Shown in pieces: positions 1,398 through 21,763 of a stretch of 42,827 nucleotides of DNA. The notes below the pieces were generated by a model, which saw only the letters and a program-made list of their open reading frames with translations, did not search any database and was not told the origin of the DNA. The stretch comes from Candidatus Altimarinota bacterium (lineage in GTDB: Bacteria; Patescibacteriota; Gracilibacteria; UM-FILTER-43-11): NCBI GenBank assembly GCA_028281045.1, contig JANQKP010000002.1:1-42827 (forward strand), written 5' to 3'. Both the position numbers and the translations under genes were made by a program. How positions within the stretch are numbered: position 1 is the first letter of the stretch; the number at the start of each line of letters is the position of its first letter.

Positions 1398-3887
1398 TTA
1401 TTTAAGTAGTCTTTTACTGATTTTTTTAGCTTTAGATACTTTTTCTTTTCTAGTGAGCTTGCGTCCAACGCTGGTGTTTCCTTTAAGTAGACGTTCACGT
1501 AGGGCTATGGCTGCAATAGAAAGTACTCCAATAGTTACTAGGGCCCCTAGAATAATTGGAAGTGGCAACCCACGCTCTGCTACAAAGAAGTGAACGGTTA
1601 CACTTGGTGAGCGTAACTTGTTTCCACTTAAGTCTTGTTTAACAGCGTAAAGGGTTACGCGATGGGCCTCACCTTTTTCTAGAGCACGTGGAGCTTTAAT
1701 AGAGAAAGCTCCTTCTGATTGTGTTTTAGCATCACTGTTTAGAACTACAGGGCTATTCCACACGGCAAATACTTGAGAGTCTTCCTCGGTTAGACCGGTA
1801 AGTTCAGGTTGTTCGTTATTAATGTCGAAAGGATTTGCTCCGTTTTGTGCATGAGCTTTTGGAATCCATGATTCATCTAGGTGAATGGCAATGTTTCCAG
1901 AAGCATCTGCTGAAATAGATTCTTCAGGAATAGGTTCACCATCTAGGGCTAGTTCACTTGGTGGCTCTGAGAATAGTCCGTTGTCGAATCCAAGGTTCAC
2001 CGCACTAATAATAGATCTTTCAAATTCTGGTGCGATTTCGCCATCTTCTGTAGTAACCACTTCTTCATAGAAGGCCTCTGCTTCAATCACATATTTAGAT
2101 TGATTTTCAAAGGCGCTGTAGCTTCTTAGGCTGAAGTTTTTGTAGGCAATAATATTGTCACATTGGTCTACCGCAGGGTAGTTTCCAAATTCTGCCACTT
2201 CACCTACAAGTTCACGCTCTGCGCCAACTGCGCGGCTACCGTCTAGTTCTAGACGAGTTCTATAAATCGCTACCTTTTCAGTGTTCTGCGTTACAGAACC
2301 GGTGATCTCAGGTTTTAGGTCTGAAGATACAATATTGTTTTCAGGTCCTAAGATTTCCACAGATTGGAATGGAGCATCAATATCACAATCGTTTGAAGTG
2401 ATATTCGCCACATACTCTTGTGGAAGTGGTTCTGGCTCTGGTTCTTCTTCCTCTGGAGCAAGGAACGCTAGAAGAGGTGCTTCCTCTTCTTCCTCTGCAG
2501 GCTCTTCTTGAGCAATGTTTCCTGTTGCAGGTACTTCTACAATTTGGGCCTCAGGCAGTGGACAAGGTCCAACCGTATCTCCGTGAGCTAAGTGCTCATC
2601 TAGGAAGCTTTCACCAATCTGAAGGCTATAAGGATTTGTTGGATCTTCTTCTGGGAAGTGACAAATGATAATTTGCTCTTCGTCTATTGCAATGGCAGGT
2701 CCTTCTGGATCGAATGTGCTTGCACTAGAAGTGGTTTCTCCAGGAAGGGCACAAACAAGATCACATGTAGGACAAGGTCCTCCACAATCTACTCCTGTTT
2801 CTCCTTGGTTGATGATCCCATCTACACAAGTTGCACAGGCAGCACATGTTCCTCCACAATCTATGCCATCTTCGTTGGCATCGTGGATTCCATTGCTACA
2901 ACTTGCTTCTGGAATAACAATGATTTCATTTAAACATAGGCTAGAACATCCATCTTCTGAAACTAGGTTTCCATCGTCACATTGTTCTCCTCCTGCAGGT
3001 TCTAGAATTCCATTTCCACAAACTGGTGGAGGTGGAGCAGGCTCCCAAATGTAAATAGTAGTACTTGAAGTTTTACAATTGGCAGGTACGTTTAGGTCAC
3101 AAATGGTAACGCTAATTGGCACATCTTCTCCTTCTTGGAAGTCTGACGTTGGATCTGTTTCTATGCGGTACACTCCATTGTCTAGCTCAGTGGTTACCTG
3201 AGGTGAATTTGGATTAATACTGGTTCCATTAATACTAAAGGTCAGTGAGTCTATATCTACTCCAGCACGGTTATCGCTTAGAGAGAAAATTACGTTGGTA
3301 TCTACTGGGTTATTCGCAGATCCGGCTACCGGTGTTATGAATTGGACCGTAGGCGCTGTAAGGTCTGGAGTACAGAATCCAACCCCATCCACTTCAGTGT
3401 TGTATCTATCTTGGAAATTATAGGTTTTATTGCTTACCCCCGTTAACACGTTGGTGATTGCATCGCTCACCATGTTGTTTGCTGTTACAAGGTCTGGTGA
3501 GAACGTAAAGGTTCCCGTGTCTTCTGTCAGACTTGGGGTGAAGGTGATATAACCAAACGTTCCACTACCATTGTATGAACCTGTGAAAGGTAAGCGCGCA
3601 CCACTTAGCTTCAGGTTATCTGCATTGATCTGGTTGAATGCCAGCATTGGCAGGGGAGTTCCAATGGCAAGTGTATCCACTGTCACTTCGTTTGAATCGA
3701 AGAGAATGGTGGTATCACCTGCAATAACATTTTCCCCTTGGGTATCCATCTTGATCTCTACTGTAGTAGAACAACCTTTTACAAGGTTATTGGCATCAGA
3801 CAGACTGTATGTTGCAGCGTATGCGTGAGGCATCAGCATCAGCATACTGGTTAAGAAACTTATAGATTTATAAAATGTGCGCTTCAT
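1398..3887 (-). CDS. Membrane-anchored surface protein with cohesin-like and Cys-rich domains
   Basis: 829 residues. A signal peptide (about 1-24, ending HAYA) precedes a cohesin-like beta-sandwich at about 25-150 (the patterns TTVEIKMDTQG, ILFDSNEVTVDTLAIG and TFGYITFTP follow the cohesin layout). An Ig-like region (175-285), a DUF4215-type Cys motif (CGNGILEPAGGEQCDDGN) and two CxxGxxxxxExGxDCGG-type Cys repeats follow. An acidic Glu/Pro linker lies near 490-520, and a C-terminal membrane helix (about 775-797) ends in a Lys/Arg tail. This reads as an extracellular scaffold anchored at its C-terminus. It begins 13 bases after the upstream gene, whose protein ends in a dockerin, which suggests the two proteins bind. 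The cohesin call rests on pattern, not a profile search. Confidence 0.8.
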   Translation of the reverse strand: MKRTFYKSISFLTSMLMLMPHAYAATYSLSDANNLVKGCSTTVEIKMDTQGENVIAGDTTILFDSNEVTVDTLAIGTPLPMLAFNQINADNLKLSGARLPFTGSYNGSGTFGYITFTPSLTEDTGTFTFSPDLVTANNMVSDAITNVLTGVSNKTYNFQDRYNTEVDGVGFCTPDLTAPTVQFITPVAGSANNPVDTNVIFSLSDNRAGVDIDSLTFSINGTSINPNSPQVTTELDNGVYRIETDPTSDFQEGEDVPISVTICDLNVPANCKTSSTTIYIWEPAPPPPVCGNGILEPAGGEQCDDGNLVSEDGCSSLCLNEIIVIPEASCSNGIHDANEDGIDCGGTCAACATCVDGIINQGETGVDCGGPCPTCDLVCALPGETTSSASTFDPEGPAIAIDEEQIIICHFPEEDPTNPYSLQIGESFLDEHLAHGDTVGPCPLPEAQIVEVPATGNIAQEEPAEEEEEAPLLAFLAPEEEEPEPEPLPQEYVANITSNDCDIDAPFQSVEILGPENNIVSSDLKPEITGSVTQNTEKVAIYRTRLELDGSRAVGAERELVGEVAEFGNYPAVDQCDNIIAYKNFSLRSYSAFENQSKYVIEAEAFYEEVVTTEDGEIAPEFERSIISAVNLGFDNGLFSEPPSELALDGEPIPEESISADASGNIAIHLDESWIPKAHAQNGANPFDINNEQPELTGLTEEDSQVFAVWNSPVVLNSDAKTQSEGAFSIKAPRALEKGEAHRVTLYAVKQDLSGNKLRSPSVTVHFFVAERGLPLPIILGALVTIGVLSIAAIALRERLLKGNTSVGRKLTRKEKVSKAKKISKRLLK

Positions 3888-18697: not shown

Positions 18698-18970
18698 TTA
18701 ATCCTCATCCTCATCATCGGGATCGTAGCTATCGATGTTTGTCTGCTGGAGCATTCCAAGCTCCCCAATAAGAGTTCTTATCTGTTCTACTTTTTCTTCG
18801 CCATCAACATCAACGTAAATTTCTTGAATTCCTTCACCACTTCCGATATCAATTACTTTACCAATTCTTTTACGTTTAATTTGCTCAGCAATCTCTTCTG
18901 CTTTAGCTTTATCCGCCTCACTGGCGAATTGATCTATGATGGCAATTTCAATTCTTACTTCTTTTGACAT
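18698..18970 (-). CDS. Hypothetical acidic protein
   Basis: 90 residues, not recognised. Alternating strand and helix pattern, with a very acidic C-terminal tail (YDPDDEDED). The promoter 7 bases upstream puts transcription at the ATG itself, a leaderless message. Confidence 0.75.
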   Translation of the reverse strand: MSKEVRIEIAIIDQFASEADKAKAEEIAEQIKRKRIGKVIDIGSGEGIQEIYVDVDGEEKVEQIRTLIGELGMLQQTNIDSYDPDDEDED

Positions 18971-18976
18971 ATTAAA

Positions 18977-19005
18977 ATTATAACATATTTAATATAATAC
19001 GTCAA
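18977..19005 (-). promoter_or_regulatory. Leaderless promoter, TTGACG-N17-TATAAT
   Basis: -35 TTGACG (19000-19005), 17-base spacer, perfect -10 TATAAT (18977-18982). The predicted start falls on the A of the ATG at 18970. It begins one base after the direct repeat that ends the tRNA-Asn islet. Confidence 0.75.
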
Positions 19006-19006
19006 T

Positions 19007-19041
19007 AAATGGCTCCCCGTAGCATACGAAGTTAGAACCTG
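19007..19041. repeat. Direct repeat 1 of the tRNA-Asn islet
   Basis: 35 bases identical at 34 positions to 21200-21234. Minus strand: starts CAGGTTCTAAC and ends GGGGAGCCATTT. The end resembles the 3' end of the tRNA-Asn gene (GGAGCCATTTATTGAC here, GGAGCCATATATTGAC after the tRNA, 15/16). The stop codon of the FAD oxidoreductase lies inside it. Candidate attachment or recombination site. Confidence 0.75.
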
Positions 19042-20261
19042 TTTTGTGGTGTAGTGCTAGCACTTCTTCGTATTAGATGTGTCGCAATTGCTTCTGCATT
19101 CATGTCTGCCATTCCAAAATTAGCGGCTGCTGGACCATGGCCCAAGGAGGCCAGTTTGCCTGTTGCATACACTCCTTCTACCCCTTTAAACTCTAGTGTT
19201 TTGGTATCCACATTTGGTAAGCCTGCGTGAATTTCTGATACTGATGCAAATGCTTCTTCCCATGGATTTTCACCAAAGGTGGTTTTATAGCCTGTGCAAC
19301 ATATAACTAAGTCGAACACTCTCAGTCCATCAACTTCAACTCCGTGTTCTCTTGATATTAGGCTTCCAACAGTTGTGTTCTCTGCGATGGTGAAGTTTTC
19401 GTGACTGCTTGCTGCAGCATGGGTATGAGGGTGGACTCTTCCACGGGCATTAATAGCTTCTATTATATCCGCTCTTTGCCCCAATAGTTTTTTTTTGAAT
19501 TCCTCATATTCTTTTCCTCCAAAATAACCAGCATCGAAGTCCAGGGGATTGATATTTGGTGTAGATCTGCTAGTTAAGGTTACCATTCCTCCTCTTTCTA
19601 AAATGGCATAAGATAAGCCAAATCCGCTTTGACCAGAGCCAATAATAAGCACATTTTTACCTTGCCAGTTTCTTTTTGTTACATCTATTTCATGGCTATG
19701 AATTACTCTTGTGTCCTCAAAACCCTGAATGTCTGGTTTTTTGGGTTTGCCTCTACCAGTTGCTAAAACTACATTATTAACTTGTATTCTGATTTTCTCA
19801 GCAATATTACCCTTGCTTATTTCAAGCGTGAGATCCTTTGTTCCATCAGAGTTCAAATTGGTGTTTACTACTTGGCCATCTAAATGATGATTCTGTATTC
19901 CAGATTTTCTGACGACTTCGTCATGAAAACCATTAAGGTATGCAAGACTCGGTCTTCCTCCTTGTGCATTAGGTTCTGGCAGTTGGAAATCATTGTTCTC
20001 TGGTGAAATATCTAAGTCACCAGGCAGGGATAGATAATGTTTAAATGGGGAACGATAATGAGTCATTCCTTGTCTTGAGGTTACATTTTTCCAGTCTGAT
20101 AGTGGAGCATTAGGGGCTATCATCAAAAAATCATCATAGCCCCATGCGGCAAGATGGGTTGCGACTGCAACTCCTTGTGGCCCATGGCCTATGATGGCAG
20201 TTTCAACCGTCCTTAAGTCGCTATCAGATGGATGTTGTTTTAAGTTTTCAATGTTCTTCAT
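19032..20261 (-). CDS. FAD/NAD(P)-dependent oxidoreductase, FMO-like
   Basis: 409 residues. It has an N-terminal FAD Rossmann motif (AIIGHGPQGVAVA, about 23-35), a central VVLATGRGKP, a second nucleotide site NVLIIGSGQSGFG (about 205) and a late CCTGYKTTFG typical of flavin monooxygenases. The layout resembles flavin-containing or amine N-hydroxylating monooxygenases (Pyr_redox_3/NAD_binding_9 type). Substrate unknown. It lies in the islet beside tRNA-Asn and is divergent from the alarmone-synthetase-like gene, sharing a palindromic control region. Its last codons lie within direct repeat 1. Confidence 0.85.
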   Translation of the reverse strand: MKNIENLKQHPSDSDLRTVETAIIGHGPQGVAVATHLAAWGYDDFLMIAPNAPLSDWKNVTSRQGMTHYRSPFKHYLSLPGDLDISPENNDFQLPEPNAQGGRPSLAYLNGFHDEVVRKSGIQNHHLDGQVVNTNLNSDGTKDLTLEISKGNIAEKIRIQVNNVVLATGRGKPKKPDIQGFEDTRVIHSHEIDVTKRNWQGKNVLIIGSGQSGFGLSYAILERGGMVTLTSRSTPNINPLDFDAGYFGGKEYEEFKKKLLGQRADIIEAINARGRVHPHTHAAASSHENFTIAENTTVGSLISREHGVEVDGLRVFDLVICCTGYKTTFGENPWEEAFASVSEIHAGLPNVDTKTLEFKGVEGVYATGKLASLGHGPAAANFGMADMNAEAIATHLIRRSASTTPQNRF

Positions 20262-20311
20262 TGGAGGGTGTATTTATGAAATATGTGGTGACCTTAATGT
20301 CATCAAGAGAG

Positions 20312-20374
20312 AATATATATCAAAAATATTCTTAATGCAACTATGTTGCATTAAGAATATACAATCTATAAAAT
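20312..20374. promoter_or_regulatory. Divergent promoters sharing a perfect palindrome
   Basis: A 35-bp palindrome with 16-base perfect arms (20326-20341 and 20345-20360, centre TAT) contains a -35 on each strand. Rightward: TTGCAT (20346-20351), 17 bases, TAAAAT (20369-20374). Leftward: TTGCAT (20340-20335), 17 bases, TATATT (20317-20312). One protein bound at the palindrome could control both the FAD oxidoreductase and the synthetase-like gene. The rightward transcript would start about 5 bases before its ATG. Confidence 0.72.
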
Positions 20375-20385
20375 GTTTCTGAAAA

Positions 20386-20889
20386 ATGAGAAAGAATACA
20401 ATGCATATTAATGCAATAAAAACTAGGCTGCATGCATGTCATCATCATGACTCAAGATGCCTCTCGGACTTAAAATGCTTACTTGAGAAAATAGTAATGG
20501 AGCACGATATGGATGCCATTATTTCCTATCGCATCAAAAATGCCCATTCTATGAAACTCAAGATGAGGAAAAAACAATGTCAGTTTCATGAGATATACGA
20601 TCGTCTTGGCATGCGTATTATTGTAAAAGAAATCAAGGATTGCTATAAGGTGTTAAGCCTATGCAAGAAAAATTCCTTGTATGAATTGGATAGCTTGAAA
20701 GATTATATTTCTAGCCCAAAGCCAAATGGTTACCAGTCACTACATATTTTAATTAAACCACCTTGCAGCTCTCATCATCAGCATGTAGAGCTACAAATTC
20801 GGACATGGACCATGCAGCAACAATGTTCGCTTGGGGAGCTTAGCCATTCTAATTATAAGAAGGGAAAGTATGGTGACTTGAGTATCTAA
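20386..20889 (+). CDS. Small alarmone-synthetase-like protein (RelA/SpoT synthetase domain)
   Basis: 167 residues, short for a small alarmone synthetase (usually 200-260). The synthetase core is present: SYRIKNAHSMKLKMRKK, the metal Asp in IYDRLGMRIIV, DYISSPKPNGYQSLHI (substrate loop) and VELQIRTWTMQ with the catalytic Glu, then GELSHSNYK. No hydrolase or regulatory domain. It could make (p)ppGpp or be a toxic or RNA-modifying synthetase of the toxSAS kind; sequence alone does not decide. A second ATG lies at 20401. It forms a likely operon with the ferredoxin-like gene 45 bases on. Confidence 0.8.
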   Translation: MRKNTMHINAIKTRLHACHHHDSRCLSDLKCLLEKIVMEHDMDAIISYRIKNAHSMKLKMRKKQCQFHEIYDRLGMRIIVKEIKDCYKVLSLCKKNSLYELDSLKDYISSPKPNGYQSLHILIKPPCSSHHQHVELQIRTWTMQQQCSLGELSHSNYKKGKYGDLSI

Positions 20890-20934
20890 AAAGCTTAATA
20901 ACCTTGGCATTCCAATAGATTAACTTTATTAATA

Positions 20935-21186
20935 ATGAAAATCATTCGCATTTGCAAAGCAATTTACTGTTGCAAGGCAGACTCAGAAAAATTGATTGAG
21001 TTTGCAGAAAATAAAACACAATCTGATTCAACTATTAAAGTGGAACCTTCTGGATGCCTGGGGGCCTGTGATTATGCACCTAATATAGAAATAGTAGATT
21101 GTCAGGCTAATAAGCGAAAAAAATACTTAACCGTCACAAAGGGGTACTTAATGTCCTTGATTAAGAAGTTAAGAAAAGCCAAATAA
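20935..21186 (+). CDS. Thioredoxin-like [2Fe-2S] ferredoxin
   Basis: 83 residues. Cysteines at about 7, 12/13, 41 and 45, with the hallmark GCLGACDYAPNIEI, match the thioredoxin-fold [2Fe-2S] family (the NuoE-like C-terminal type). Likely an electron carrier; the FAD oxidoreductase in the same islet is a possible partner, by position only. C-terminus is Lys-rich. Ends 13 bases before direct repeat 2. Confidence 0.8.
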   Translation: MKIIRICKAIYCCKADSEKLIEFAENKTQSDSTIKVEPSGCLGACDYAPNIEIVDCQANKRKKYLTVTKGYLMSLIKKLRKAK

Positions 21187-21199
21187 TGTAAGTATGCTT

Positions 21200-21234
21200 A
21201 AATGGCTCCCCGTAGCATATGAAGTTAGAACCTG
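21200..21234. repeat. Direct repeat 2 of the tRNA-Asn islet
   Basis: Second copy of the 35-base repeat (one difference from 19007-19041), in the same orientation, 2.16 kb away. It lies immediately downstream of the 131-residue minus-strand gene, just as repeat 1 lies at the end of the FAD gene. Confidence 0.75.
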
Positions 21235-21236
21235 GA

Positions 21237-21632
21237 CTAGTTAGTAAGTGATGCCCAGACTAATTCCATTTCCGCCATTAGTTCTTGCAACCTTTCTCTT
21301 GTGATTTTGAAATGTTCGGCAAGTAGAAGAATTGTAGCTACTTCGCTTTGGTGGGCACTCCTGGTTAATTCGGAAGCCTCATTTATCGCATCTATGTGCT
21401 CTCCCGCTTTTTCAATTCTTTTATTTCTCTCTGTGGACCTGGTTATATTAATGGATGCATCAAAGCCATTTTGGTGGATTACATCCTCTATGTTAGTTCT
21501 TATGGCGGAATCTACAATTAGGCTTAAAACAATCCTTTCCTCGTCGGTAAGCTGGGGATTCTCTTGTAAATCCGCTTTTCTACGGATAAGTGCCGAAACT
21601 TCATTGCCTAAATTGTACTCTTGATCACTCAT
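21237..21632 (-). CDS. Hypothetical helical protein
   Basis: 131 residues, charged and almost entirely helical, without cysteines, signal or membrane segments. No family recognised. It lies between direct repeat 2 and tRNA-Asn, so it may be a second unit inserted at this tRNA. Stop is TAG. Confidence 0.65.
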   Translation of the reverse strand: MSDQEYNLGNEVSALIRRKADLQENPQLTDEERIVLSLIVDSAIRTNIEDVIHQNGFDASINITRSTERNKRIEKAGEHIDAINEASELTRSAHQSEVATILLLAEHFKITRERLQELMAEMELVWASLTN

Positions 21633-21652
21633 ATTTAATTAACTTTGAGTGC

Positions 21653-21681
21653 AGTAAAATAACACCATTTAATTATGGTGT
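21653..21681 (-). terminator. Terminator after tRNA-Asn
   Basis: Perfect 7-base stem ACACCAT (21662-21668) / ATGGTGT (21775-7 region, 21675-21681) with a 6-base loop, followed on the minus strand by TTATTTTA. It starts 7 bases after the tRNA CCA end. Confidence 0.7.
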
Positions 21682-21688
21682 CAATATA

Positions 21689-21763
21689 TGGCTCCTCGGA
21701 CTGGATTCGAACCAGTGACCTACCGGTTAACAGCCGGGTGCTCTACCACTGAGCTACCGAGGA
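21689..21763 (-). tRNA. tRNA-Asn (GTT)
   Basis: 75 bases with encoded CCA. Acceptor TCCTCGG pairs with CCGAGGA; D arm AGCTCAGTGGTAGAGC; anticodon loop reads CTGTTAA with anticodon GTT; T arm CTGGTTCGAATCCAG. Its 3' end is the likely integration point of the neighbouring islet. Confidence 0.96.

Follow-up and report, generated by a model that had tools for sequence, protein, structure and literature searches.

Why would a gene for a stand-alone alarmone synthetase lie beside genes for a flavoprotein and a ferredoxin, between two direct repeats and close to a tRNA gene? This question is raised by a 2.2-kb islet in a 42,827-nucleotide stretch of DNA from a Candidatus Altimarinota bacterium (positions 1 to 42,827 of contig JANQKP010000002.1, assembly GCA_028281045.1; the whole stretch is hereafter called the window). 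The host genome is 1.2 Mb in size and 96% complete. The islet extends from repeat 1 (R1) to repeat 2 (R2) and carries genes for a flavin adenine dinucleotide (FAD)/NAD(P)-binding protein (FADox), a stand-alone alarmone synthetase of the Rel type (SAS), and a 2Fe-2S ferredoxin. These gene types had been named in an earlier inspection of the letters (the sequence-only reading), and they are borne out by matches to Pyr_redox_3, RelA_SpoT, and 2Fe-2S_thioredx. With a probability of roughly 0.66, we read the R1-R2 unit as a horizontally acquired, Zur-controlled zinc-starvation module at tRNA-Asn that would place the synthesis of guanosine tetra- and pentaphosphate, (p)ppGpp, under zinc control. Sequence support for this reading comes from the gene content, the operator architecture, the assignment of the Zur box, the association of the FADox family with Zur, and the synthetase motifs.

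A predicted Zur operator between the divergent islet genes

The region between FADox and SAS contains the palindrome ATATTCTTAATGCAAC-TAT-GTTGCATTAAGAATAT, the only perfect inverted repeat in the window with arms of at least 12 bp and a loop of no more than 6 nt. It is the strongest feature of the locus and had been passed over in the sequence-only reading. In each arm, a TTGCAT is placed as a -35 element would be relative to a -10-like hexamer (TATATT on the FADox side and TATAAA on the SAS side), and the palindrome overlaps both possible -35 elements. When the host genome was scanned for the operator pattern AATGCAAC-N3-GTTGCATT with up to 3 mismatches, four sites were found besides that of the islet. 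Two of the four, separated by 44 bp, precede a Fur-family gene (C4:442-870) that is followed after 5 nt by a gene for a ZIP transporter. The islet operator is shared at 0 mismatches with a zinc operon box. The same box is located close upstream (up to ~140 bp) of Fur homologues in at least eight relatives (G015, G007, G014, G041, G055, G043, G040, and G002), with a perfect match in G002; by our own estimate, chance alone would account for only ~0.5 matches over the 618 kb covered. The box-bearing operons that were read have the order fur-znuA-ABC (G007, G014, and G041) or fur-ZIP (G015), and a run of such boxes precedes another fur-ZIP operon in G006. Because the box precedes fur-ZIP in the host and fur-znuA or fur-ZIP operons in the relatives, the palindrome is most likely a Zur box. 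The argument rests on the positions and conservation of the sites, not on their number, and suggests AATGCAAY-N3-RTTGCATT as the Zur box for this group of Patescibacteria. The palindrome is also terminator-like on the minus strand. A role as a terminator was rejected: G-C pairs make up only 4 of the 16, the position is upstream of the FADox gene, and the match to the Zur box is exact.

Two sites among the relatives were noted individually. In G006 (contig C61, locus L104, 2060-2150), overlapping TGCAA/TTGCA half-sites stand before a second Fur-family gene and then a ZIP gene, near tRNA-Asn, and this run of half-sites is a possible multi-site Zur operator. In G007 (contig C94, locus L125, 477-495), a Zur box with 1 mismatch is situated 60-80 bp upstream of an open reading frame (554-1429) that has a His-rich stretch and adjoins fur-znuA; its product is a candidate zinc-binding, Zur-regulated protein.

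The FADox family and zinc

A genome-wide scan recovered 269 relatives of FADox. The islet protein aligns with this family over its full length at 24-29% identity and shares family-invariant residues such as R70-S71, D241, D243, G245, G248, and K250. A COG0523 zinc GTPase is encoded within 5 kb at 30 of the 80 best family loci (of the 269 relatives) versus 0 of 72 control loci from other taxa, and the genes adjoining FADox homologues include cobW, ZnuA, HemB, and FUR. Upstream of the cyanobacterial homologues, the canonical cyanobacterial Zur box TGATAATNATTATCA (up to 2 mismatches, within 150 bp) was detected in 41 of 52 cases versus 1.1% of other sequence windows from the same loci, and 4/7 homologues from Bacilli have a Bacillus-type box (up to 3 mismatches). 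The first three plasmid-borne homologues all adjoin COG0523 GTPases and zinc-sparing paralogues; overall, the neighbors of plasmid-borne members include rpsN, hemB, folE, metal-ABC, and COG0523 genes. Two mutually independent lines thus connect FADox with zinc starvation, the islet operator on the one hand and the Zur boxes and neighbors of its family on the other. On the comparative data, zinc starvation is also the suggested function class of a widespread flavoprotein family whose members are mostly annotated just as FAD/NAD(P)-binding protein.

An AlphaFold2 model of FADox (predicted local distance difference test score 88) gave PvdA and SidA as top Foldseek matches (template modeling score 0.66-0.75, 12-18% identity), and the predicted fold is like that of ornithine, lysine, and putrescine N-hydroxylases. 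The model thus points to an N-hydroxylating-monooxygenase-like fold; at such low identity, a reaction of this kind is only a candidate. A FADox homologue 26% identical to that of the islet was also noted, with an S14-like gene nearby, on a contig labelled Candidatus Gracilibacteria (JAAUUT010000049.1; locus L190) that is possibly a cyanobacterial misbin.

The alarmone synthetase and its partner

SAS has 167 amino acids, or 162 if translation begins at the ATG at 20401, which has a Shine-Dalgarno-like GAGAAAG. It scores 104 bits against RelA_SpoT (cut-off 27), and its synthetase motifs are intact, the regions YRIK, EIYDRLG, KPNGYQSLH, and VELQIRT being conserved. Its product is presumably (p)ppGpp. 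Hydrolase (HD), TGS, and Cys-rich zinc-finger domains are absent from SAS, and its best matches are long RelA/Rel proteins rather than the YjbM/YwaC type. These domains are present in the genome's own Rel, a 725-residue protein that has HD and TCCAP...HNKAC. With the same strand and a gap of 45 nt, SAS and the ferredoxin gene form a probable operon; the ferredoxin has cysteines at positions 7, 12, 13, 41, 45, and 56. No box was found at the other Rel-type loci collected, and the connection between Zur and an alarmone synthetase is so far seen only at this islet. As a separate observation, locus L234 (G000:C5) encodes, at 513-1463, a 316-residue protein whose C-terminal part is a Rel synthetase domain and in which an HD motif is not evident; this brings the Rel-type genes of a reduced genome to three.

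A proposed link between zinc and growth

When zinc is sufficient, the host Zur, which would be encoded elsewhere in the genome together with the ZIP zinc transporter, is proposed to sit on the shared palindrome and block both divergent promoters. Upon zinc shortage, Zur would leave the operator, and derepression would yield FADox on one side and SAS plus the NuoE-like ferredoxin on the other. Because SAS has no hydrolase, ribosome-sensing, or Cys-rich zinc-finger domain, the level of its product, presumably (p)ppGpp, would depend on derepression by Zur. Ribosome synthesis is a large zinc sink, and raised (p)ppGpp would slow it such that zinc is saved. The bifunctional long Rel of the genome would then remove the signal and reset the system. 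The binding of Zur, the (p)ppGpp product, the effect on growth, the reaction of FADox, and the role of the ferredoxin as its partner are the parts of this scheme that we infer. If true, a metal signal would be connected to a growth brake by simple genetic means. A broader version of the idea is that the islet is a mobile cassette wiring Zur to (p)ppGpp, such that zinc limitation itself would trigger the stringent response, and that it has spread among ultra-small bacteria via tRNA-Asn with a recombinase acting in trans. We regard this version as tentative, at somewhat worse than even odds.

Known Zur regulons contain uptake systems, metallochaperones, and zinc-free spare parts. No alarmone synthetase under Zur control was found described in the literature searched for Zur and alarmone terms, and two reviews on Zur (PMC6103462 and PMC8000910) do not mention ppGpp.

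Alternative explanations

Several observations weigh against a zinc-starvation module. The count of operator-like sites in the genome was not above that of a reversed-pattern chance control, and the host Fur-family protein is called Zur by its operon context only. The identity of FADox to its family is low at only 24-29%, and two plasmid-borne family members (from S. aureus and Salimicrobium) are not by zinc genes. Neither SAS nor this ferredoxin was encountered at the FADox-family loci examined, so the case for a function shared with FADox comes from the common operator alone. Finally, binding, expression, and enzyme activity of the module are all predictions from sequence.

Fur-family subtypes are not distinguishable by sequence, and the NCBIfam scores of the host protein fall below every curated cut-off, the top one being against Fur. 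The palindrome might thus belong to a different regulator of the Fur family (Fur, PerR, or Mur), with a module that answers iron, peroxide, or manganese instead of zinc; a cargo of ferredoxin and flavoprotein would suit iron or redox too. We consider this unlikely because ZIP or ZnuA is encoded in the operons that carry this box and because FADox homologues have zinc-type boxes and zinc neighbors across phyla. The same family-wide Zur signal, together with the exact identity of the operator to a zinc operon box, makes it quite improbable that the palindrome arose by chance in an ordinary metabolic islet, where FADox and the ferredoxin would be a redox pair, SAS a decaying fragment of a long Rel, and zinc regulation absent. 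SAS is indeed short and devoid of other Rel domains, and the linkage of the three genes is not conserved: a search for the gene set, proposed in the sequence-only reading, did not find FADox, SAS, and the ferredoxin linked at other loci examined. Decay is, however, at odds with the intact state of every synthetase motif.

The defence role that had been suggested for the islet would require SAS to be a toxic synthetase of the toxSAS/CapRel kind, an anti-phage or toxin-antitoxin component that, upon infection, would modify tRNA by pyrophosphorylation or produce a lethal alarmone. Such an enzyme would fit the island location, a PADLOC match (PDC-S33, 2.3e-21) covering the synthetase domain only, and a match to PHROG 4773. 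However, SAS is a 167-residue synthetase alone, with FADox and the ferredoxin as neighbors and neither an antitoxin-like partner nor a fused sensing domain. Its sequence is nearest to long RelA/Rel, known toxSAS enzymes are absent among its PDB matches, and its promoter has a predicted zinc operator in common with a putative zinc-starvation flavoprotein. A toxic synthetase is accordingly very unlikely. Of the defence or stress module envisaged earlier, the stress half holds up in the form of zinc starvation, given the Zur box and the FADox family, and the defence half is not supported.

Probable acquisition at tRNA-Asn

The zinc-starvation reading also includes the arrival of the islet by insertion at tRNA-Asn. 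R1 and R2 are direct repeats of 36 nt that are identical at 35/36 positions and spaced by 2193, extending the 35-base repeats (34/35) described in the sequence-only reading. No further copy was found in the 1.2-Mb genome with up to 3 mismatches, and a pattern scan of viral contigs, genome contigs, and 341 genomes of the class returned just the two islet copies. The resemblance of a repeat end to the 3' end of tRNA-Asn, also claimed earlier, was confirmed. R1 matches this 3' end plus 8 downstream bases at 17/20 positions, versus 14/20 at the runner-up place in the window and a best of 13-15 (of 20) in 30 random 13-kb sequences; R2 matches the tRNA-Asn 3' end at 14/20. The R1/tRNA match calls for one reservation: its TTGAC doubles as the -35 hexamer of a promoter-like site on either side, and promoter constraint could therefore be the source of part of the similarity. 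Two details are additions to the sequence-only reading: R1 contains the stop codon of FADox, and the stop codon of ORF131, the gene between R2 and the tRNA, comes 2 nt before R2; therefore, both possible units terminate in a repeat. The AGCATAC after R2 is a mirror image of ATATGCT within the repeat, as a full two-armed site would have, and the sequence after R1 differs from that after R2. This is consistent with R2 being an element-type site and R1 a hybrid joint. Folding of the repeat into an attC-like structure or a tRNA T-arm was considered and rejected, the symmetry seen by inspection amounting to no more than short arms.

Searches of 353 class genomes (E 1e-20) and 380 phylum genomes (E 1e-12) did not detect FADox; the two sets overlap in part and together sample ~730 genomes. 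FADox was also without a match in viral contigs and phages, as were SAS and ORF131 in viral contigs. In the relative G012, TypA, tRNA-Asn, and HflX occur in the same neighborhood, but other genes lie between the tRNA and TypA. Large serine recombinases with Resolvase, Recombinase, and/or zinc-ribbon domains abut tRNA-Asn in G007 and G018 (26% mutual identity), and their reading frames terminate inside the tRNA gene on the opposite strand. Accordingly, tRNA-Asn is a repeated target in the class. The distal tRNA-end repeat was not found on the available contigs of these recombinase-bearing relatives. Taken together, the boundaries, the absence of FADox from the class and phylum genomes, the contents of the G012 locus, and the G007 and G018 recombinases support the R1-R2 unit as an acquired islet at tRNA-Asn, in line with the earlier proposal of one or two units inserted there. 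None of the islet genes encodes an integrase, as had been remarked, and the host genome contains a single Xer-like tyrosine recombinase and lacks serine recombinases; insertion was probably carried out by a site-specific recombinase encoded outside the islet. The proposed search for an empty tRNA-Asn site found no close relative with one among the genomes compared, the nearest of which belong to other genera. The content of the locus was different in each relative read.

The two recombinases (L101 8074-9705 in G007 and L103 1218-2672 in G018), which lie directly downstream of tRNA-Asn, have the C-terminus LLGLDSNQ in common, with frames running antisense into the tRNA; possibly the tRNA supplies the end of the integrase gene when it serves as attachment site.

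Comparison with known systems

In Corynebacterium glutamicum, the divergent genes cg0794 and cg0795 are both directly repressed by Zur via operators overlapping their -35 regions (PMC2823685). This pair is the closest experimental precedent for the islet. In both, a gene for a putative oxidoreductase diverges from a partner gene, with known or predicted Zur operators over the -35 elements. The likeness is one of arrangement and does not imply homology of cg0795 and FADox. Unlike in the islet, the partner is a COG0523 GTPase and not an alarmone synthetase, there are two operators instead of one, and the pair is chromosomal. The Zur-associated FAD/NAD(P)-binding family of cyanobacteria, Bacilli, planctomycetes, and haloarchaea is the one to which FADox belongs by full-length alignment, but its other members are often found with COG0523, ZnuABC, HemB, FolE, or S14 paralogues, and none examined is accompanied by SAS.

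SAS shares the RelA_SpoT domain and intact motifs with small alarmone synthetases and long RelA/SpoT proteins. It differs from the former in being long-Rel-like, in its Zur-type operator, and in its location in an acquired islet. Like tRNA-integrated islands and large-serine-recombinase elements, the islet lies at the 3' end of a tRNA gene and is bounded by direct repeats. Unlike them, it has no recombinase, resides in a genome without a serine recombinase, and is only 2.2 kb in size. Integron gene cassettes offer another parallel, since the last gene of each islet unit ends at or in a conserved repeat and the units are in tandem at one site. However, there is no adjacent integron integrase, attC-like hairpin symmetry was not seen by inspection, and the site is a tRNA gene.

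Other features of the locus

Table 1. Positions of the islet features in the window, in order along the forward strand.
Feature	Position	Strand	Description
Promoter-like TTGACG-N17-TATAAT	18977-19005	-	Directly after R1; reads into flanking gene 18698-18970
Repeat 1 (R1)	19006-19041	-	Distal boundary; in tRNA orientation CAGGTTCTAACTTCGTATGCTACGGGGAGCCATTTA, then TTGAC
FADox	19032-20261	-	Pyr_redox_3; FAD/NAD(P)-binding flavoprotein of Zur-associated family; stop inside R1
Perfect palindrome	20326-20360	.	16-bp arms, 3-nt loop; core AATGCAACTATGTTGCATT (20334-20352); predicted Zur operator of both divergent promoters
SAS	20386-20889	+	Stand-alone Rel-type (p)ppGpp synthetase domain; RelA_SpoT 6.9e-30
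Ferredoxin	20935-21186	+	2Fe-2S_thioredx/NuoE-like, thioredoxin fold; 45 nt after SAS stop
Repeat 2 (R2)	21199-21234	-	Boundary of 2.2-kb unit; then AGCATAC
ORF131	21237-21632	-	All-helical protein without assigned function; possible second unit between R2 and tRNA
Promoter-like TTGACA-N17-TATTTT	21656-21684	-	Directly after tRNA; reads into ORF131; overlaps hairpin 21660-21683
tRNA-Asn(GTT)	21689-21763	-	Presumed integration target; 3' end GGAGCCATATATTGAC resembles R1

The further gene that the sequence-only reading had placed between R2 and the tRNA is ORF131, for which no homologue was found and whose all-helical model is of low confidence. The two promoter-like sites (11/12 at 18977-19005 and 10/12 at 21656-21684) start exactly where the tRNA-like core stops. 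With such promoters at both outer boundaries, expression of the flanking gene and of the first inserted gene would be preserved upon insertion. In many lineages of the host's class, TGA appears to serve as a sense codon, which points to Patescibacteria/Gracilibacteria. In the relative G010 (contig C58, locus L109, 2901-3263), tRNA-Asn is interrupted between positions 34 and 35, and the intervening sequence (2975-3215) is a group I intron (Rfam RF00028, 53.5 bits).

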